A DNA stretch of 64,000 nt from Streptomyces sp. ST2-7A (GTDB taxonomy: Bacteria; Actinomycetota; Actinomycetes; Streptomycetales; Streptomycetaceae), in assembly GCF_021390475.1 (NCBI RefSeq), contig NZ_JAJUWS010000006.1:62001-126000 (forward strand), read 5' to 3'. The notes under the pieces are model-generated. The model did no database searches, was not told the origin of the DNA, and saw only the letters and a list, made by a program, of their open reading frames with translations. Numbering within the stretch: the first letter of the stretch is position 1; every line of letters begins with the position of its first letter. The position numbers were made by a program, and so were the translations under genes. Below are positions 18,352-45,031 of the stretch, piece after piece.

Positions 18352-20019
18352 TCAGTCCGCCGTGTGGATCACCCGGCCGGCGACCACCGTGCGCAGACAC
18401 TCCGGGGAGGGCTCTCCGGGGGAGAGGTCGGGAAGACCGGGAGTGGCGGAGCGGGGGTCGGTGGACCACCGGGCGACCCGGTCGTCCGGAGCCTGCACGA
18501 CCAACTCCCCCACCCGCCACACCGCGTAGTCGGCCGGGGCTCCGGGGACCAGCACCCCGCCGTCGTCGCGGCCCAGGGCCCGCCAACCGCCCCGGGTGTG
18601 GGCGGCGAAGGCGGCCCGGACGGAGACCCGGTGCGCCGGGTTCCGGTGGTGGGCGGCGGCCCGCAGCGCCCCCCAGGGGTCGAGCGGCGTCACGGGCGCG
18701 TCGGATCCCAGCGCGAGGGGCACCCCGGCGCGCAGGAGTGCCGCGAAGGGGTTGAGCCCGGCGGCGCGTTCGCGCCCCAGCCGCATCGCGTACATGCCGT
18801 CCGGGCCGCCCCAGGCCGCGTCGAAGGCCGGCTGCACCGAGGCGGTCAGGGCCAGGTCGGCGAAGGCGGCGACGGTGTCGGGGGTGAGCATCTCGGCGTG
18901 CTCGACCCGGTGGCGCAGGGCACGGACGCGGTCGGTGCCCACCCGCTCGGCGGCGGTTCGCACACCCTCCACCACGGTGGTCACGGCCGCGTCGCCGATG
19001 GCGTGGAAACCGGCCTGCACCCCGGCCAGCGTGCAGGCGGCCACGTGGTCGGCGACGGCCCGGGCGTCCAGGTGGGCGGTCCCCCGACTGTGCGGGGCGT
19101 CGGCGTACGGGGCGTCCAGCAGGGCGGTGCGCGACCCCAGGGAGCCGTCGACGAACAGGTCCCCGGCGGCGCCGACGGCACCGAGCTCCCGGATCGCGGT
19201 GGCGGCCCCCGGCTCGGTGACCGCCTCGGCCCAGTAGCCGTGCACCCGCGGGGCCGGCTCACCGGCGGCCAGCCGGAGCAGGGCCGTGAGGTCCTCGGTG
19301 GAGGAGATCTCCGGACCGGCGCACTCGTGCAGCCCGCCGATGCCCAACCCGGCCGCCCGGCGGAGGGCGGCGCGCTGGGCCGCCGCGCGCACGGCGGGCC
19401 CGATGGAGCCGTGGGCCGCCCGGCGCACCGCGTGGTGGGCGGCGGCGGTGAGGGGGCCGTCGGGGTCGAAGCCGGGGTGTCGGGCGACATCGACCACCCG
19501 GTCCAGCAGGGCGGTGGAGGCCAGCGCGGAGTGGACATCCACCCGGGTGAGGTAGACGGGTCGGCCCCCCGCCGCCGCGTCGAGCCGGTCCCGGCCCGGC
19601 GGCCGGGGGTCCGCCCAACCGGTGGTGTCCCAGCCGTGGCCGAGGACGACCTCGTCGGCGGGCAGGTCGCGGGCGTGTTCCCGCACCCGGCGCAACAGGT
19701 CCTCGGCGTCCCGGGCGCCGGTCAGGTCCAGGCCGGTGAGGGCGAGTCCGGTGGCGGTGGCGTGCACGTGGGCGTCGACGAAGGCCGGGGCGACCAGGGC
19801 TCCCCGCAGTTCGACGATCTCGTCGACGGTCTCCGCGAAGGACGCGGCGGCGCCCTCGGCCCCGACCCAGGCGACGGTGTCACCGCGCACCACCATGGCG
19901 GTGGCGAAGGGATCGGCCGGGGTGTGGACGGTGCCGCCGCGCAGCAGCACGGTGCGGGGCGGGGCCCCGGCCTCGGGGGCGGGGGGTCCGGGTTCTTCGG
20001 GTGTGATGCGCCGACTCAT
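18352..20019 (-). CDS. Amidohydrolase, YtcJ-like (amidohydrolase 3 family)
   Basis: 555 aa from ATG at 20019. Metal-dependent hydrolase with a composite beta-sandwich/TIM barrel. Metal-ligand motifs in order: AFVDAHVHATATG, GFHAIGDAA, LRHRVEHAEM, and LGSDAPVTPLDPWGAL near the C-terminal end of the barrel. YtcJ relatives deacylate N-formyl or N-acyl compounds; the substrate here is unknown. Length is typical (~540). The Lrp regulator gene lies 61 bp upstream on the same strand and might be co-transcribed. Confidence 0.85.
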   Translation of the reverse strand: MSRRITPEEPGPPAPEAGAPPRTVLLRGGTVHTPADPFATAMVVRGDTVAWVGAEGAAASFAETVDEIVELRGALVAPAFVDAHVHATATGLALTGLDLTGARDAEDLLRRVREHARDLPADEVVLGHGWDTTGWADPRPPGRDRLDAAAGGRPVYLTRVDVHSALASTALLDRVVDVARHPGFDPDGPLTAAAHHAVRRAAHGSIGPAVRAAAQRAALRRAAGLGIGGLHECAGPEISSTEDLTALLRLAAGEPAPRVHGYWAEAVTEPGAATAIRELGAVGAAGDLFVDGSLGSRTALLDAPYADAPHSRGTAHLDARAVADHVAACTLAGVQAGFHAIGDAAVTTVVEGVRTAAERVGTDRVRALRHRVEHAEMLTPDTVAAFADLALTASVQPAFDAAWGGPDGMYAMRLGRERAAGLNPFAALLRAGVPLALGSDAPVTPLDPWGALRAAAHHRNPAHRVSVRAAFAAHTRGGWRALGRDDGGVLVPGAPADYAVWRVGELVVQAPDDRVARWSTDPRSATPGLPDLSPGEPSPECLRTVVAGRVIHTAD

Positions 20020-20080
20020 GTCGATCAGTCTCGCGCGAACCCCGCGCGGACCGGTGCCCGGGGTCGTGGGGACCGGGGGT

Positions 20081-20521
20081 TCACACCCGGGGCGGGCGTG
20101 CCTCGTAGGGCGTGGAGAGGACCACGGTGGTTCGGGTGGAGACACCGGCCAGCGACCGGACCCGGGCCAGGAGGTTTTCCAGATCGGCCGGGCCGGCGAC
20201 CCGGACCTTGAGGATGTAGTTCTCCTCGCCGGCGACGCTGTGGCAGGCCTCGATCTCGGGCACCTCCGCGAGCCGGTCGGCGATGTCGTCGGGGGCGCTG
20301 GGGTCGAAGGGCTTGACCGAGATGAACGCGGTGAGGGGCAGTCCCAACGCGTCGGGGTCCACGACCGCGGCGTAGCCGCGGATCACGCCGCGGCGCTCGA
20401 GCCGGCGCACGCGTTGGTGGACGGCCGAGGTGGACAGGCCGGTGGCTTTACCCAGGTCGGTGTAGCTCATGCGGCCGTCGCGCACGAGCAGTTCCACGAT
20501 GTGCCGGTCCAGTTCCTCCAC
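20081..20521 (-). CDS. Lrp/AsnC family regulator
   Basis: 146 aa from GTG at 20521; the longer in-frame upstream part is Pro/Arg-rich and not Lrp-like. N-terminal HTH (DRHIVELLVRDGRMSYTDLGKATGLSTSAVHQRVRRLERRGVI), then the RAM effector domain with PLTAFISVKPFD, EIEACHSVAGEENYILKVRV. A GGTAGG site lies ~10 nt upstream. Divergent from the Cys-motif protein gene across a 263-bp region carrying two matching palindromes. Ligand unknown; amino acids are usual. Confidence 0.9.
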   Translation of the reverse strand: MEELDRHIVELLVRDGRMSYTDLGKATGLSTSAVHQRVRRLERRGVIRGYAAVVDPDALGLPLTAFISVKPFDPSAPDDIADRLAEVPEIEACHSVAGEENYILKVRVAGPADLENLLARVRSLAGVSTRTTVVLSTPYEARPPRV

Positions 20522-35934: not shown

Positions 35935-37293
35935 ATGCCGTCCTCCCGCTCCTCCCGTCGGGGTCCCTCCGACTCCGCCGGGCACAAGTCCGGCATCGCC
36001 CTCCCCTCCCCCGACGTCCGGCGGGCCCGTCGCTCGGTGGGTGCCGTCTTCACCGTCCACGGGGCGGTGACCGGCTGCTTCGCCACCCGCATCCCGTGGA
36101 TCCAGGAACACCTCGGGCTGAGCACCGGTCAACTCGGCCTCGCTCTGGCCTTTCCCGCCATCGGCGCGGCGGTGGCCATGCCGATGGCGGGGCGGATCGT
36201 GCACCGGTGGGGAGCGAGAGCCGCCCTGCGCACCCTTCTCGTGCTGTGGTGCCTGGCCCTGGCCCTGCCCGCCCTCGCGCCCCACCCGATCGCCCTCTGC
36301 GCGGCGCTGGCGATCTTCGGCGCCACCGCCGGCATGGCCGACGTGGTGATGAACGCCCAGGGCGTGGAGGTCGAGGAACGGTACGGCCGCTCGATCATGT
36401 CCGGCCTGCACGGCCTGTGGAGCGTCGGAGCCCTGATCGGCTCCGCCGTCGGCGTGGCCGTCGTCCACCTCGGGGTGGACGCCCGGATCCACCTCCCCGC
36501 GGCGTCGCTGGCGTTGGCGGTGCTCGCCCGCTTCGCGGTGCGCGGGGTGCTCGACGTGCGCGCGAAGCCCGGCGAGACGGCCCCACCCCGCTTCACGCTG
36601 CCCCCGAGATCCGCCCTGTTGATCGGGGCGATCGGCATGTGCGCCGTCTTCGGCGAGGGCGCGGGAATGGACTGGTCCGGGGTCTACCTGCGGGAGGTCA
36701 CCGGCAGTTCGGAGACCGTGGCGGCGGCCGGCTACACCGGCTTCGCCTGCACCATGGCCATCGCCCGACTGCTCGGCGACTCGGTGGTGCGGCGGATGGG
36801 CGTGGTGCGCACCGTGCGGGCCGGCGGACTCCTGGCCACGGCCGGCGGCGCGCTGGTCGTGGTGGCCCCGGTACCGGCCGTCGGCGTGGCCGGGTTCGCC
36901 CTGCTGGGCGTGGGCATCGCCGTGGTGGTGCCGCTGACCTTCGCCGCCGCAGGTCGCAGCGGCGCGCAGCCGGCCCGGGCGATCGCGGGCGTGGCGACCA
37001 TCACCTACACCACCGGCCTGGTCGCGCCGGCCGTGATCGGCATGCTCGGCGAGGTGTCCTCGCTGCGCCTTTCCTTCGCACTGGTGACCGGGGCCGCCGT
37101 GGTGCTGTTCCTGTGCGCCGGGGTGCTGGCTCCCGGCCGGCAGGGTCCGGCCGGCGGGACCTCGGTCACCGGCGGGGCGGGAGCGGCCGGCGGGGCGGGG
37201 GTCGTCCCCGCCTCGGGCCCCGACCCCGGCGGCGCGGCCGCCTCAGTCGGCGGCGGCCATGCGGCGCACGGCCTCGGCGAGCACGGCCGGTGA
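35935..37293 (+). CDS. MFS transporter (YbjJ-like)
   Basis: 452 aa, about 12 membrane helices. HGAVTGCFATRIPWIQEHLGLSTGQLGLAL is the N-terminal signature of the YbjJ/FucP-like group; the cytoplasmic loop GRIVHRWGARAAL is the MFS motif A. GEGAGMDWSGVYLREVTGSS and GFALLGVGIAVVVPLTFAAAGR are also characteristic. C-terminal ~55 aa are Gly/Ala-rich. Probably leaderless; repressed by the ROK regulator. Substrate unknown, sugar-like by regulator type. The 3' end overlaps the converging aminotransferase gene by 51 bp. Confidence 0.9.
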   Translation: MPSSRSSRRGPSDSAGHKSGIALPSPDVRRARRSVGAVFTVHGAVTGCFATRIPWIQEHLGLSTGQLGLALAFPAIGAAVAMPMAGRIVHRWGARAALRTLLVLWCLALALPALAPHPIALCAALAIFGATAGMADVVMNAQGVEVEERYGRSIMSGLHGLWSVGALIGSAVGVAVVHLGVDARIHLPAASLALAVLARFAVRGVLDVRAKPGETAPPRFTLPPRSALLIGAIGMCAVFGEGAGMDWSGVYLREVTGSSETVAAAGYTGFACTMAIARLLGDSVVRRMGVVRTVRAGGLLATAGGALVVVAPVPAVGVAGFALLGVGIAVVVPLTFAAAGRSGAQPARAIAGVATITYTTGLVAPAVIGMLGEVSSLRLSFALVTGAAVVLFLCAGVLAPGRQGPAGGTSVTGGAGAAGGAGVVPASGPDPGGAAASVGGGHAAHGLGEHGR

Positions 37294-38523
37294 GCACGCC
37301 AGGTTGATCCGGGCCCTCCCCTCTCCCCCGGTGCCGAAATCCGGCCCGGGGGAGAGCGCCACCCGTCCGCGTTCCAGGAGGCGGGCGGCGGGGTCGGGCT
37401 CGTCGGGCCACCTCTCCCGGAAGTCCGGCCAGGCGAGGTAGGTCCCCTCCGGTTCGCGGAGCCCCACCCCGGGCAACAGGAGGTCCAGCAGGCGGGTCAA
37501 CAGGCGCCGGTTGGCGGCGATTCCGGCGAGGAACCCGTCCAGCCACGCCCCGCCCTCCCGCAACGCCACCGTGTGCGCGAGCACCCCGAGGTGGCTCGCG
37601 GCGTCCCCCAGGTGAATTGGGAGTGCCGCCAGGTCCCGCCCGGCCTCCGGACCGGCGACCACCAGCGCCGCTTTCACCCCCGGCAGGTTCCAGCTCTTGG
37701 AGGCGGAGAAAACGGAGAAGCCGCGCTCCGACCCCGGCCGGGAGAGCCAGGGCGTGAAGCGCGCGCCGGGCGGGACGATCGGGGCGTGGATCTCGTCCGC
37801 GACCACCCGCACCCCGTACCGTCCGGCCAAGCCGGCGAGGGTGTCCAGTTCGTCCGCGCGGGGCACCGTGCCGGTGGGGTTGTGCGGATTGCACAGCACG
37901 TACACCGACCCGGGAGCGGTTCGGAAGGCCCGTTCCAGCGCCTCCGGGTCCAGGCGCCCGGCCGGATCGAGCGGGGCCTCGACCACCCGACGCCCCCGGT
38001 GGCGCGCCATCACCGCGATCGGCGGGTACAGCGGGGGGCTGATCACCACCGTGCCGTCGGGCGGGGTGAGCAGGGCGACCAGTTCGGTGATGCCCTGGAT
38101 CACGTCGCCCACCGGGACGGTTCGCTCCTCCGGTACCGGCACGCCCCATCGTTCACGGGAGAAGGCGTCGAGGGCACCGACGTACCCGAGGTGGTCCGCC
38201 GGGTAACCCAGGTCGCCCAGGTCGATCGCCTCGCGCAGGGCCCGGGCGACCGGTTCGGGGGTGGGTACGTCCGCCTCCGCCACCCACAGGGGCAGCACGT
38301 CCGCGGGATGGAAACGCCACTTGGCGGAGGTGCGCCGGCGCAGGTGCTCCTCGCCGAGCGCGACCAACGGACCGTCGGGGGCCGCGGCCTCCGCCTCCGC
38401 CACCGCCCGGGCGACCGCGTCCGAGGGGTCGGAGGGGACCGTGGTGGGGCGCAGCGGGGATATCCCCGACGGGTCGGTGGCCCCCACGGGGTCGGGTGCG
38501 GGGGCGGAGTGGTCCAACGGCAC
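37243..38523 (-). CDS. MalY/PatB-type PLP enzyme (aminotransferase or C-S lyase)
   Basis: 426 aa from GTG at 38523 behind GAGGAGAG. Fold-type I PLP enzyme of the MalY/PatB group: RRTSAKWRFHPADVLPLWVAEADVP, VVISPPLYPPI, CNPHNPTGTVPR, VADEIHAPI and the PLP lysine in FSASKSWNLPGVKAA. Such proteins are cystathionine beta-lyases or aminotransferases. Transcribed 83 bp after the DavB-like gene, so it may belong to that operon, but a role in 5-aminovalerate metabolism is only a guess. N-terminal ~35 aa are variable. Confidence 0.85.
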   Translation of the reverse strand: MPLDHSAPAPDPVGATDPSGISPLRPTTVPSDPSDAVARAVAEAEAAAPDGPLVALGEEHLRRRTSAKWRFHPADVLPLWVAEADVPTPEPVARALREAIDLGDLGYPADHLGYVGALDAFSRERWGVPVPEERTVPVGDVIQGITELVALLTPPDGTVVISPPLYPPIAVMARHRGRRVVEAPLDPAGRLDPEALERAFRTAPGSVYVLCNPHNPTGTVPRADELDTLAGLAGRYGVRVVADEIHAPIVPPGARFTPWLSRPGSERGFSVFSASKSWNLPGVKAALVVAGPEAGRDLAALPIHLGDAASHLGVLAHTVALREGGAWLDGFLAGIAANRRLLTRLLDLLLPGVGLREPEGTYLAWPDFRERWPDEPDPAARLLERGRVALSPGPDFGTGGEGRARINLACSPAVLAEAVRRMAAAD

Positions 38524-38606
38524 GGCGGGCTCTCCTCTGGTGACCGGGGCCGCGGCATGACGGGTGCCACCGCGGTGTGACGGGTGCCCGGGGGGCGACC
38601 GCCACC

Positions 38607-40331
38607 TCAATCCTCCGGCAACTCCACCGGTGCCAGCTCGTCGAACAGATCGCCCGGGCCGGGATTGGCCGGATCACAGGCACCGCCGAAGTGGCTCATG
38701 ACGCCCCAGACGGCGTTGAGGGCGGTCTGCACCGCGCCCTCGGCCCACCCCGCGGTCCAGGAGATGTCGTCCCCGGCGAGGAACAGGCCGCGCCGATCGG
38801 CGGGCAACCGATCCTGCACGAAGTGGGTGAACAGGCGGCGCTGGTAGCGGTAGTGACCCGGCAGGTTCGCCTTGAAGGCGCCCATGAACCAGGGTTCGTT
38901 CTCCCAGGAGACGGTGATCGGGTTACCGATGACGTGCCGTCGGATATCGACATGCGGATAGATCTCCCGCAGGGACTTCAGCATCACCTCCATCCGTTCG
39001 CGGGCGCTCAGCGGCAGCCACTTGAGGCTGTCGTCGCACCACGTGTACGAGAGGCAGATGACGGCGGGACGGTCCGGGCCGTCGTCCAGCAGGTAGGTGC
39101 CCCGGGTCATCCGGTCGGTGAGGGTCATGCTCATGGTGTCCCGACCGGTGCGCTCGTCGCGGTCCAGCCAGAAGGGCCGATCCACCGGAACGAAGAGCTT
39201 GGAGGATTCCATGTAGTGGGTGCGCTCGACGGCGGTCCAGTGGTCGATGGGCAGCAGGTCGTCGTCGCAGTCGATGCGCGAGAGCATCAGCCAGGACTGG
39301 GCCGTGAAGATCGCCGCCCGGTAGGTGCGCACGTCCCCGTCCGCGTCGGTGACGGTGATCCGGTTGCCCGCCGTGCGGTGCAGGCGGGTCACGGCGGGAC
39401 GGGTGCGGCCCTCGTGCAGGGAGCGCAGGGAGGTGCCGCGCGGCCAGTGCACCAGTTTCTGCGGCTCGTCCTCCCACAGTCGCAGGGGCAGTTGCCGACT
39501 GCCGCCGACGATGCCGCGGTGGTCGTCGTCGGCACCGGTGTAGACGACGCGCAGGATCTCCAGGATGGAGTTGGGGAAGTCGGTGTCCCAGCCCCCGGTG
39601 CCGAAACCGACCTGACCGAAGGTCTCGCGGTCCCGGAAGGAGGAGAAGGCCGGGGAGTCGCACAGGAAGCCGTAGAAGGTCCGGTTGTCCAGGCGCTCCA
39701 CCAGGCGGGACCAGATCTCCCGGATGCGCGGCACGTCCCGTTCGCGGATGGCGCGCTGCATCGCGCCGAACTCCGCCCCCTCCTCCAGCGCGGTGTTCCA
39801 CGCCTCCATGACCCGGTGGTAGACCGGCGGCAGATCCTCCAGGGTGCGCGCGTAGTGGGTCTCGCCCTTGAGGTCCACGACCGTGGAGGGGGTACCCGGG
39901 GCCAGCGGGTTGGGGAAGGGCCGCGACTCCAGGCCGACCAGATCGGCGTAGTGCCAGAAGGCGGTGGAGGAGGGCGGGAAACGCATCGCCCCCATCTCCG
40001 CGGTCAATCCCGGGTCGCACCCCTCGAAGGTCTCGGTGCGCAGCCGGCCGCCGAGCCGATCCGCCTCGTACACCACCGGCCGCAACCCCATCCGCATGAG
40101 CTCCCGGGCCGCCACCATGCCGGAGAGTCCGCCGCCGATGACGGCGACCTCGGCCCCGTGCTCCGTCGCCGGGATCTGGCCGAGGCCCGCCGGATGGGCG
40201 AGCCAGTCGTCGTAGGCGAAGGGGAAGTCGGGACCGAACATGGTCACGGTCGGTTCGGGGCGGGCGTCGGTGGGCGGGTGCTGCTCCGCCTCCCGGGCGT
40301 CGTGGGCGACGTTGGGCACCGTGGAGGTCAT
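38607..40331 (-). CDS. davB: Flavin amine oxidase, L-lysine 2-monooxygenase-like (DavB)
   Basis: 574 aa. FAD Rossmann motif EVAVIGGGLSGMVAARELMR (GxGxxG at 66-71, ribose Glu at 89), MGAMRFPPSSTAFWHY, and a C-terminal FAD/substrate segment GLFLAGDDISWTAGWAEGAVQTALNAVWG. Matches from my memory of Pseudomonas DavB are extensive: FGPDFPFAYDDWLAHPAGLG, GFGTGGWDTDFPNSILEILRVV, MSMTLTDRMTRGTYLLDDG, GHYRYQRRLFTHF, DPANPGPGDLFDE. DavB decarboxylates and oxygenates L-lysine to 5-aminopentanamide. Tryptophan 2-monooxygenase is the alternative within the family. The DavA-like amidase lies 107 bp upstream in the same direction, supporting lysine. Confidence 0.82.
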   Translation of the reverse strand: MTSTVPNVAHDAREAEQHPPTDARPEPTVTMFGPDFPFAYDDWLAHPAGLGQIPATEHGAEVAVIGGGLSGMVAARELMRMGLRPVVYEADRLGGRLRTETFEGCDPGLTAEMGAMRFPPSSTAFWHYADLVGLESRPFPNPLAPGTPSTVVDLKGETHYARTLEDLPPVYHRVMEAWNTALEEGAEFGAMQRAIRERDVPRIREIWSRLVERLDNRTFYGFLCDSPAFSSFRDRETFGQVGFGTGGWDTDFPNSILEILRVVYTGADDDHRGIVGGSRQLPLRLWEDEPQKLVHWPRGTSLRSLHEGRTRPAVTRLHRTAGNRITVTDADGDVRTYRAAIFTAQSWLMLSRIDCDDDLLPIDHWTAVERTHYMESSKLFVPVDRPFWLDRDERTGRDTMSMTLTDRMTRGTYLLDDGPDRPAVICLSYTWCDDSLKWLPLSARERMEVMLKSLREIYPHVDIRRHVIGNPITVSWENEPWFMGAFKANLPGHYRYQRRLFTHFVQDRLPADRRGLFLAGDDISWTAGWAEGAVQTALNAVWGVMSHFGGACDPANPGPGDLFDELAPVELPED

Positions 40332-40438
40332 CTGGGGGTTCTCCCGGGTCGTGCGACGGAGGTGCTGGGGCTCTGGGGTGCCGGGCCGGACGGGTACGAC
40401 CGGCCGCGCGGGGGGATCGGAAAGGGGGTGAGGGGGTG

Positions 40439-41329
40439 TCAGTCGATCGGGGCGGGAACGGGGCCCGGGTGGGGCGACCCGTCGAGGGGATAGAGCCCGG
40501 GACGGCGGTCCGCCAGGTACGGGGTGATCCGTCGGGCGGCGTCCACCGCCCGCGGATCGACCTCCGCGAACAGCAGTTCCCCGCCCTCCCCCGCCCGGGC
40601 GGGGACGCTCCCGTCCGGGGCGGCCAGACAGCTCAGGCCGGTGAACCGGAGGTCGCCCTCCGCGCCGCAGCGGTTGGCGTAGGCGACGTACATCCCGTTC
40701 TCCGCCGCCCGGACGGGTACCAGCTGCCGGGCCACGAAGTCGTGCGGGGCCATCAACGCGGTGGGCACCAGCAGCAGCTCGGTGCCGGCCAGGGCGTGGG
40801 CGCGCACCACCTCGGGGAATTCCACGTCGTAGCAGATCAGCAGCCCGACCCGGACTCCCGCCAGCACGGCCCCGACCACCGGGCGGTCACCGGGGACGAA
40901 CGCCTTCCGCTCCCACTCCCCGTACAGGTGCGTCTTGCGATACTCCGCGAGCGTCGCGCCGTCGGGGCCGGTCAATCGGACGGTGTTGTGGATCCCCCGC
41001 CCGGAGAGTTCCGGCCGCCCGTGCGCGATCGCCACGCCGTGCCGGGCGGCGATCCGGGCCACCGCGCGGTCGGTGGGGCCGTCCGCGGGTTCCGCGAGGT
41101 CGGGGAGGCGGTCGCCCAGGACGTATCCGGTCATCGACAGTTCGGATCCGACCAGCAGGGCGGCGCCGCCGGCGGCCGCCCGGGCGGCGGACGCGTCCAG
41201 GTCGGCCAGCGCCGCCTCACGGGAGGCGGGCAGTCCCTCCGGGCCCTGTCGCAGGGCCAGGCGCAGGATGGCCCCGCCGGATTCGTCGGCGGGCACGGCC
41301 GGGCGGGCGGTGTGGACGGGGCGGGACAT
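40439..41329 (-). CDS. davA: Carbon-nitrogen hydrolase, 5-aminopentanamidase-like (DavA)
   Basis: 296 aa. Nitrilase-superfamily amidase with triad E63 (SELSMTGY), K132 (YRKTHLYGE) and C166 (LICYDVEFPE). Segments VPTALMAPHDFVARQLVPVRAAENGMYVAYANRCGAEG and ITPYLADRRPGLY parallel Pseudomonas DavA, which hydrolyses 5-aminopentanamide to 5-aminovalerate. The substrate assignment rests on this similarity plus pairing with the DavB-like monooxygenase. First gene of the apparent davA-davB(-malY) unit, with its own promoter and phased upstream repeats. Confidence 0.82.
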   Translation of the reverse strand: MSRPVHTARPAVPADESGGAILRLALRQGPEGLPASREAALADLDASAARAAAGGAALLVGSELSMTGYVLGDRLPDLAEPADGPTDRAVARIAARHGVAIAHGRPELSGRGIHNTVRLTGPDGATLAEYRKTHLYGEWERKAFVPGDRPVVGAVLAGVRVGLLICYDVEFPEVVRAHALAGTELLLVPTALMAPHDFVARQLVPVRAAENGMYVAYANRCGAEGDLRFTGLSCLAAPDGSVPARAGEGGELLFAEVDPRAVDAARRITPYLADRRPGLYPLDGSPHPGPVPAPID

Positions 41330-41415
41330 GGCACCTCGGTGCGGACGGCCGGTGGGCGGGGCGGTTCACCGGCTCGGGCCGGCGACCGGCCGGAACGCGG
41401 CCGGATACACCTCCG

Positions 41416-41445
41416 ACGCTAACGGCCGCCGACGGGGCACGACAA
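41416..41445 (-). promoter_or_regulatory. Promoter of davA
   Basis: Minus strand: TTGTCG (41440-41445), 18-nt spacer, TAGCGT (41416-41421). Predicted leader ~80 nt to the davA ATG. Three phased TTGCGC repeats lie just upstream of the -35. Confidence 0.5.
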
Positions 41446-41455
41446 GAAGCGTCGA

Positions 41456-41514
41456 TTGCGCGTCCGGGCGGTTTTCGTTGCGCTTTCACCCCGATCACCG
41501 GCGATTCATTGCGC
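41456..41514. repeat. Three helically phased TTGCGC direct repeats
   Basis: TTGCGC at 41456-41461, 41478-41483 and 41509-41514, i.e. 22 and 31 bp apart, close to two and three DNA turns. On the minus strand the units read GCGCAAT/GCGCAAC followed in two cases by GAA. They lie upstream of the davA promoter, consistent with cooperative binding by an Lrp-type octamer. The remaining ~257 bp to the lrp stop (41515-41771) shows nothing else. Confidence 0.5.
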
Positions 41515-41771
41515 GGGGCCCCTCCCGCCCCCGGGCACGGAGACCACCGGCGCGTTGACGGTGACGATCACCGCGATCGCCGCCCGGGAGAGCGGGTCGA
41601 GCCACCGACCCGACACCGCCACCCCGGCCGGGGGCGAATACCGGGTTGACGCCCCTGGGGATCCCGAACCGGTGGGCCGGGACCCGACTCGGCGCGAACG
41701 GATCGGTGCGGAAGGGCACCGCGGAGGAGAGTGCCCCCGCCGACGCACCGGGCGGGCCCCGGGCGGGGCGG

Positions 41772-42332
41772 TCAGGCCGGCAGGTCCGGGGCGTGCCGGC
41801 GCAGCAGCGGGGAAAGCACCAGCACGGACTTCGTCCGCTCCACGAAGTCCTCCCCCGCGATGCGTTCCAATACCCGCTCGAAGTGCCGCATGTCGGAGGC
41901 GAAGACCTGCACCACGGCGTCCGCCTCACCGGTGACCGTGGAGGCCGAGGCCACCTCGGGATAGCGGGCCAGGGCGCGACGGATGTCGGCCGGGGCGGTG
42001 CGCGAACGGCAGTACAGCTCGATCAGTCCCTCGGTGCCGCGTCCCATCACGGCCGGATCGATCCGGACCGTGAAGCCGGTGATGGCACCGCGGGCGCGCA
42101 GCCGGTCCACCCGGCGCTTCACCGCGGGGGCGGAGAGGCCGACCTCGGCGCCGATGTCGGCGTACGCCCGGCGGGCGTCCTCGGCCAGGGCCCGCACGAT
42201 CCGCTCGTCCAGGGCGTCCAGGCCGATCGGGGGCGCCCCCGTACCGGCCACCGGGCCCGTGGGGTGTGCCGGCCGGGAGGCGTCGCCGTCACGGTGCCGG
42301 TCCGGGGCGGCGGGAACGTCGTCGTGTCGCAC
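41772..42332 (-). CDS. Lrp/AsnC family regulator
   Basis: 186 aa from GTG at 42332; an in-frame GTG at 42362 is an alternative and neither has a good Shine-Dalgarno. A ~40-aa Pro/Arg leader precedes the Lrp HTH (LDERIVRALAEDARRAYADIGAEVGLSAPAVKRRVDRLRARGAI) and RAM domain (TEGLIELYCRSRTAPADIRRALARYPEVASASTVTGEADAVVQVF). Immediately upstream, in genome order, of the lysine-type davA-davB unit, so it may be its amino-acid-responsive regulator. Lies ~80 bp downstream of guaB1. Confidence 0.85.
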   Translation of the reverse strand: MRHDDVPAAPDRHRDGDASRPAHPTGPVAGTGAPPIGLDALDERIVRALAEDARRAYADIGAEVGLSAPAVKRRVDRLRARGAITGFTVRIDPAVMGRGTEGLIELYCRSRTAPADIRRALARYPEVASASTVTGEADAVVQVFASDMRHFERVLERIAGEDFVERTKSVLVLSPLLRRHAPDLPA

Positions 42333-42410
42333 CCGCGCAGTACACCACGGGCCCCCGACCACCGCGACGCCCGGGGCGAGGGCCCGCCGCCCCGGGGATC
42401 GCGGGGAGGA

Positions 42411-45031
<2,621 letters not shown>

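Follow-up and report, generated by a model that had tools for sequence, protein, structure and literature searches.

A 64,000-nucleotide stretch of the genome of Streptomyces sp. ST2-7A (NCBI RefSeq assembly GCF_021390475.1, contig NZ_JAJUWS010000006.1, positions 62,001 to 126,000 of the forward strand; hereafter the window) was analysed for a gene pair encoding a flavin amino-acid 2-monooxygenase (FMO) and a nitrilase-superfamily amidase. The genome, labelled G000, comprises 6.18 Mb in 90 contigs, and the window corresponds to C6:62001-126000. The pair proved genuine and conserved and probably forms a dedicated catabolic module, with a lysine label less likely than an arginine one. Its physiological substrate is most likely L-arginine, a reading held with rather better than even confidence, in which arginine would be converted through 4-guanidinobutyramide and 4-guanidinobutyrate to 4-aminobutyrate (GABA). 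Neither the chemistry nor the enzyme family is new; what is new is the reassignment of the substrate and a tandem operator upstream of the amidase gene. Present in nearly all sampled Streptomyces, the pair offers a concrete candidate for an arginine-to-GABA route and may explain part of the arginine use of the genus; it lends itself easily to annotation as lysine monooxygenase/DavA.

Genes of the locus are transcribed from the minus strand in the order guaB1, Lrp/AsnC regulator, CN_hydrolase amidase, FMO and a MalY/PatB-type gene. The FMO (38607-40331, minus strand; 574 aa; Pfam Amino_oxidase, E=4.5e-55) is a flavin-dependent basic-amino-acid 2-monooxygenase best read as a putative arginine 2-monooxygenase. 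The amidase (40439-41329, minus strand; 296 aa; CN_hydrolase, E=8.5e-46) is best read as a putative 4-guanidinobutyramide hydrolase, with a predicted E63-K132-C166 triad. The regulator (approximately 41772-42251, minus strand, with an approximate start) carries both AsnC domains and is the proposed reader of the operator. Adjacent, co-directional FMO and nitrilase-family amidase genes with Lrp/AsnC next to the amidase gene had been described in an earlier note on this DNA, and the genes were placed as described there.

FMO was found in 383 of 393 Streptomyces genomes (six of the 383 being weaker or partial best matches), in 37/37 genus members of one sample, and in 27 of 28 listed Streptomyces within a sample of the class, across the whole of which it was present in 45 of 296 genomes. 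Neighbourhoods were compared in the 78 named loci with a length of 6 kb or more that remained when two shorter ones were dropped from the top-scoring 80 of at least 592. The amidase lay on the strand of the FMO in all 78; 67 of the stretches also contained an Lrp relative, 62 contained GuaB1 and 41 an APC-type amino-acid permease. The amidase-FMO pair is a core trait of Streptomyces, and the conserved unit consists of amidase and FMO, to which Lrp is usually and the permease often added. Because of this conservation (78/78 loci; 383/393 genomes) a chance arrangement was ruled out, and the observation made in the earlier note held.

The best solved relative of the FMO was the L-AAO/MOG enzyme of Pseudomonas sp. 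AIU 813 (EC 1.13.12.2/1.4.3.2; 3WE0, 5YB6-5YB8), with full-length homology at 57% identity (784 bits, E=8.3e-235; phmmer). This enzyme served as the lysine reference in place of P. putida DavB. Tryptophan 2-monooxygenase (4IV9) gave 216 bits (E=1.1e-62) and phenylalanine oxidase (2YR4) 36 bits, and plasmid matches annotated iaaM were about 29-30% identical. The window FMO shared 62-74% identity with SpeB-neighbouring actinobacterial copies and 61-64% with those adjoining likely polyketide-starter genes. The Pseudomonas enzyme uses lysine, ornithine and arginine, and its Asp238 binds the terminal charge (PMC5832979). In 3WE0 numbering the window FMO retained D238, R102, W235, Y416, W418, F473 and W516 and carried the substitutions A515G, Q258H and C254A; of the residues that PMC5832979 names as contacting the substrate, A515 and Q258 alone were changed. 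The ceiling residue Asp238, Arg102, Tyr416 and the aromatic cage were retained in the window and in all 135 aligned core sequences, some of which come from shared genomes. A D238E mutant of the Pseudomonas enzyme had no detectable arginine activity left (PMC5832979), a state that the window FMO does not carry. Cys254 governs the balance between oxidase and monooxygenase in the Pseudomonas enzyme (PMC5832979), and alanine at this position could alter it in the window FMO. A comparison with lysine and tryptophan enzymes and an inspection of the pocket had been proposed in the earlier note. By score the FMO stood nearer the lysine enzyme than tryptophan 2-monooxygenase (784 against 216 bits); in the pocket Asp238 and the cage agreed with the lysine enzyme and residues 515 and 258 did not.

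The FMO tree was rooted on one distant homologue (L155), and branch support is given as ultrafast bootstrap (UFBoot). The window clade joined family f19 and then a branch holding Tsukamurella and f30 copies (UFBoot 88), which lie near SpeB or GabT. The Pseudomonas lysine enzyme lay in a separate clade with Paracoccus/Thioclava copies, with f5 and f35 on the same side (UFBoot 100), and the window half and the Pseudomonas half joined at UFBoot 93. The window FMO grouped with the Tsukamurella and f30 copies and not with the polyketide-linked, f3 or f35 copies; arginine use by all of these is putative. Eight alignment columns were fixed in four proteobacterial enzymes and fixed otherwise in 11 SpeB- or polyketide-linked actinobacterial ones. 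The window FMO had the SpeB-/polyketide-linked state at 8/8 of these, including pocket residue 515, and the proteobacterial state at 0/8. Amidase identity was 53% to ligase-linked copies and 49% to Tsukamurella, against 43-45% for the amidases neighbouring FMO in Paracoccus. Linkage to SpeB spread over the tree would fit arginine as the older and lysine as the later substrate.

Linkage of FMO to SpeB, a putative guanidinobutyrase of the agmatinase family, was examined in 24 loci (L147-L170; the FMO of L150 had no gene call and was located by blastp). The SpeB-family cluster c39 was present in the same 10-20 kb stretch in eight of these, two of which (L152, L153) are ligase-linked. SpeB lay near FMO in Tsukamurella, f30, f3 and f35. 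A Tsukamurella plasmid had the gene order speB - permease - amidase - FMO, and in G078 gabT adjoined FMO with SpeB approximately 9 kb away. Linked SpeB was seen only in other genera and beside second, ligase-linked FMO copies. The window genome carried a SpeB at G000:C13:29180-29998 (236 bits, over the curated cut-off of the agmatinase model), predicted to be of guanidinobutyrase type.

Co-occurrence of the two genes was scored at 215 bits, a cut set after the scores had been seen. SpeB reached at least 215 bits in 19/19 and 40/40 FMO-positive Streptomyces of two samples, of which the first consists of 20 genomes minus L052 and may overlap the second. Six genomes with odd FMO matches (G398, G426, G460, G466, G478, G548) stand outside the count of 40, and SpeB was present in all six. 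Among other FMO-positive actinobacteria the same score was reached in 16 of the 18 tested (of 28 such genomes known), and both misses (L154, L156) carry ligase-linked FMOs; among FMO-negative actinobacteria it was reached in 11 of the 66 tested. At E<=1e-10 with no bit cut, the FMO-positive counts were 19/19, 40/40 and 17/18. Within family f3, SpeB was found in three of three FMO-positive genomes tested and in none of four FMO-negative ones. Ten FMO-lacking Streptomyces all retained GuaB1; three of them had SpeB at 215 bits or more, two only 198- and 114-bit members, and five none. Seven genomes without FMO and core-type SpeB (G284, G365, G437, G438, G472, G501, G576) formed one clade in the GuaB1 tree, which offers a natural comparison for arginine use. 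Fisher values for FMO and SpeB were 1.2e-6 within the genus and 2.8e-8 outside it (1.2e-4 and 4.7e-3 without the bit-score cut); because the seven genomes form one clade, these values are not probabilities of independent events.

The proposed route is as follows. The FMO would take up a basic L-amino acid into an elongated pocket that Asp238 closes at its far end, oxidise the alpha-amino group with FAD and decarboxylate the imine with oxygen, giving an amide one carbon shorter; the amidase would hydrolyse the amide to the acid and ammonia. Arginine would in this way give 4-guanidinobutyramide by the FMO and 4-guanidinobutyrate by the amidase. The remote SpeB-family guanidinobutyrase (G000:C13:29180-29998) would split 4-guanidinobutyrate into urea and GABA, and GabT would feed GABA into central metabolism. 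A GABA aminotransferase over the curated cut-off was found at G000:C8:107097-108347 and would serve an arginine or a lysine route, acting on GABA or 5-aminovalerate. These substrates and products are our reading of genes, residues, conservation, the operator and SpeB linkage and co-occurrence, all taken from sequence. The Streptomyces ureohydrolase Medi2865 converts 4-guanidinobutyrate to 4-aminobutanoate (PMC5704753) and is offered as support, its orthology to the SpeB found here being putative. Growth on arginine, the lack of a standard arginase gene and a doubling of gabT with arginine are on record for S. coelicolor (PMC3293853). The first description of a route from arginine to 4-aminobutyrate came from S. 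griseus (PMC2242806), a member of the genus, with GABA likewise as the end product. One FMO, the core copy, was found (E<=1e-15) in a genome that bears the label S. griseus subsp. griseus. The classical S. griseus enzyme is the FAD-dependent arginine 2-monooxygenase EC 1.13.12.1; no sequence of it was found in the literature search. In the open-licence literature no paper naming the Streptomyces amidase-FMO pair was found, and SCO1454, the presumed S. coelicolor orthologue of the core FMO, gave no match.

Several points weigh against arginine. SpeB was on a separate contig from FMO in G000 and lay apart from it in those Streptomyces genomes that were checked, and the GCGCAACGAA-type half-site of the operator described below was not found upstream of SpeB or gabT at the fetched loci, where matches were mostly a different sequence, GACTGCAACGAC, plus one GCGCAACGAAAG distant from SpeB in L196. 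The bit cut chosen after the event matters for co-occurrence, since a SpeB-family gene was present at E<=1e-10 in 39 of the 66 FMO-negative actinobacteria. The three FMO-lacking Streptomyces that keep SpeB were scattered in the GuaB1 tree; the seven double-lacking genomes are one clade and their co-absence is therefore a single event. In the FMO tree the polyketide-linked and the SpeB-linked f3 copies branched outside the joined window and Pseudomonas clade, and the SpeB-linked f35 copy L159 branched on the Pseudomonas side. Phylum is a confounder of columns and tree alike, and the tree is rooted on a single distant outgroup.

Published work adds further points of this kind. The monooxygenase kcat/Km of L-AAO/MOG was 200 for ornithine, 74 for lysine and 24 for arginine (PMC5832979). 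The S. griseus route was written via 2-ketoarginine, not the amide, and its first enzyme was described as uncharacterised (PMC2242806). S. lividans carrying the azalomycin cluster gave product only with fed 4-guanidinobutyramide, and its genome was said by the authors to contain no arginine monooxygenase (PMC5082578). If S. lividans has the core FMO, the enzyme either does not use arginine or was not expressed. That an arginine route is missing at all is uncertain, because PMC3293853 lists two arginine deiminase genes and scattered decarboxylase-route homologues in S. coelicolor, unresponsive to arginine.

Five loci (L151-L154, L156) had an AMP-ligase near FMO, with a VinK-like acyltransferase in four of them (L151-L153, L156). 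Judged from these neighbours, and with no PKS gene identified, they are likely guanidinobutyryl-primed polyketide-starter loci, by analogy with the starter-gene systems of azalomycin and primycin (PMC5082578; PMC7522111). No amidase relative was found within the stretches of L151-L153. The two-enzyme logic of arginine monooxygenase and 4-guanidinobutyramide hydrolase in azalomycin-type pathways (PMC5082578) resembles that of the window. The FMOs of the five loci were 61-64% identical to the window copy and the amidases of L154 and L156 53%, membership of such a pathway being putative in each case. The core copy differs in that it has no neighbouring CoA ligase or acyltransferase and carries W516 where the ligase-linked copies carry F. 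If the arginine reading is true, the pair would link primary arginine catabolism with the 4-guanidinobutyrate of antifungal polyketide producers.

Other explanations of the pair were weighed against the arginine route. The earlier note had read it as a DavB-DavA lysine module, in which 5-aminovaleramide would be hydrolysed to 5-aminovalerate and drained by the remote GABA/5-aminovalerate aminotransferase. The assignment to a basic-amino-acid 2-monooxygenase with an amide hydrolase stood; tree, columns and SpeB disfavour lysine as the best substrate reading, and we consider the lysine module unlikely. It is consistent with the 57% identity to an enzyme that has lysine 2-monooxygenase activity, with retained Asp238, with a DavA-superfamily amidase adjoining in 78/78 loci and with a GABA aminotransferase over the cut-off in the genome, and the S. 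lividans result (PMC5082578) counts in its favour by counting against arginine. However, the FMO lies outside the Pseudomonas/Paracoccus clade with none of eight columns in the proteobacterial state, and the linkage to SpeB is left unexplained. Lysine catabolism in Streptomyces has been reported to proceed mainly via cadaverine, which also counts against a lysine module. Of 34 listed neighbour clusters 28 were scanned, and no class III aminotransferase or aldehyde dehydrogenase was found among them; GabT with an aldehyde dehydrogenase near FMO in one non-Streptomyces genome (L164) is an exception.

A generalist oxygenase, in which FMO and amidase would process arginine, ornithine and lysine as a nitrogen-scavenging unit under one Lrp, would accord with the ornithine, lysine and arginine kinetics of L-AAO/MOG (PMC5832979) and with the Asp238 common to both enzymes, and A515G could widen the pocket. 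SpeB linkage and co-occurrence indicate a guanidino intermediate, and a generalist role appears quite unlikely. A tryptophan 2-monooxygenase/auxin pair of IaaM-IaaH type, or a general L-amino acid oxidase, shares the Pfam family, and some plasmid matches are annotated iaaM. The scores (784 bits to L-AAO/MOG against 216 to 4IV9), the low identity of the plasmid iaaM matches and the retained Asp238 speak against it, as does the partner gene, which encodes a CN_hydrolase and not an amidase of PF01425; a PF01425 partner is a marker that separates the tryptophan pair from CN_hydrolase-partnered enzymes (PMC12462448). This candidate was rejected on score and partner gene as very improbable. The supply of precursors for guanidinobutyryl-primed polyketides, in place of catabolism, would agree with homologues that adjoin an AMP-ligase and mostly a VinK-like acyltransferase, like the azalomycin ligase step (PMC5082578). 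The Streptomyces copies in such settings are, however, separate second copies (G031, G035, G343; 61-65% identity), and ligase and acyltransferase clusters occurred in 0/80 core loci; this role for the core pair is scarcely credible.

The putative tandem operator (41449-41514, minus strand) lies upstream of the amidase gene. It comprises half-sites GCGCAATGAATCG at 41514-41502 and GCGCAACGAAAAC at 41483-41471 and a weaker half-site GCGCAATCGACGC at 41461-41449, and is followed by a TTGTC -35-like element starting at 41445. Successive half-sites start 31 and 22 bp apart, distances close to three and two turns of the helix. A half-site GCAA[CT]GA[AC] was present within 350 bp upstream of the amidase gene in 72 of 78 loci, against a background of approximately 0.017 per 350 bp. 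The same pattern occurred within 350 bp upstream of the permease gene in 10/41 and of Lrp in 1/66, and was not found upstream of FMO (0/80), GuaB1 (0/61) or the MFS gene (0/63). Paired half-sites were spaced by 31 bp in 29 of 31 cases. In whole genomes the double-site pattern gave exactly one match in 13 of 20, all 1.0-1.2 kb upstream of FMO, and no match in the remaining 7/20; a reversed control pattern gave no match. The location follows from the construction of the pattern, and the absence of a second site is the informative part. The 10-mer GCGCAAYGAA occurred twice in the window, both times in the operator, with 0.12 expected. The neighbouring Lrp/AsnC regulator probably acts on the promoter of the amidase-FMO pair by way of this dedicated operator, and in some species probably on the nearby permease as well; both its reading of the operator and its ligand are inferred. 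The operator provides a simple handle on regulation of the pair.

Taken as one proposal, the core pair and the remote SpeB may together account for the still genetically unassigned arginine oxygenase route of Streptomyces, with a single-copy operator read by the adjacent Lrp and with the polyketide-priming enzymes as an older side branch; we hold this combination tentatively, at a little under even chances.

The MalY/PatB-type PLP enzyme (37243-38523, minus strand) matched the putative beta-cystathionase 3FDB best among PDB entries. A GTG start at 38523 with a preceding GGAG is more likely than the mechanical open reading frame start at 38610. The gene is present after the FMO gene in the window, as had been noted earlier, and lies beside FMO in the sister genome G690 (85% identical); it was absent from the corresponding stretches of five further relatives and occurred in 0/78 loci. 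It was judged, as far as seen, to be local to the window genome and G690 and outside the conserved unit, and was rejected as a functional partner for lack of conservation.

Some further features of the region and its relatives were recorded. The APC-type permease, which elsewhere usually sits between GuaB1 and Lrp, is missing from the 42251-42411 interval of the window. In region 18352-20521 a further Lrp/AsnC-type gene (20081-20521), placed in one cluster with the first, lies near a gene whose start resembles an amidohydrolase, judged by eye. The FMO match in L159 (G178:C25:5575-7251) contains one internal TGA. Many Streptomyces have a DUF5995 gene near FMO but on the other strand (cluster c4, 62 members; for example L055, 3468-4142), with none in the window.

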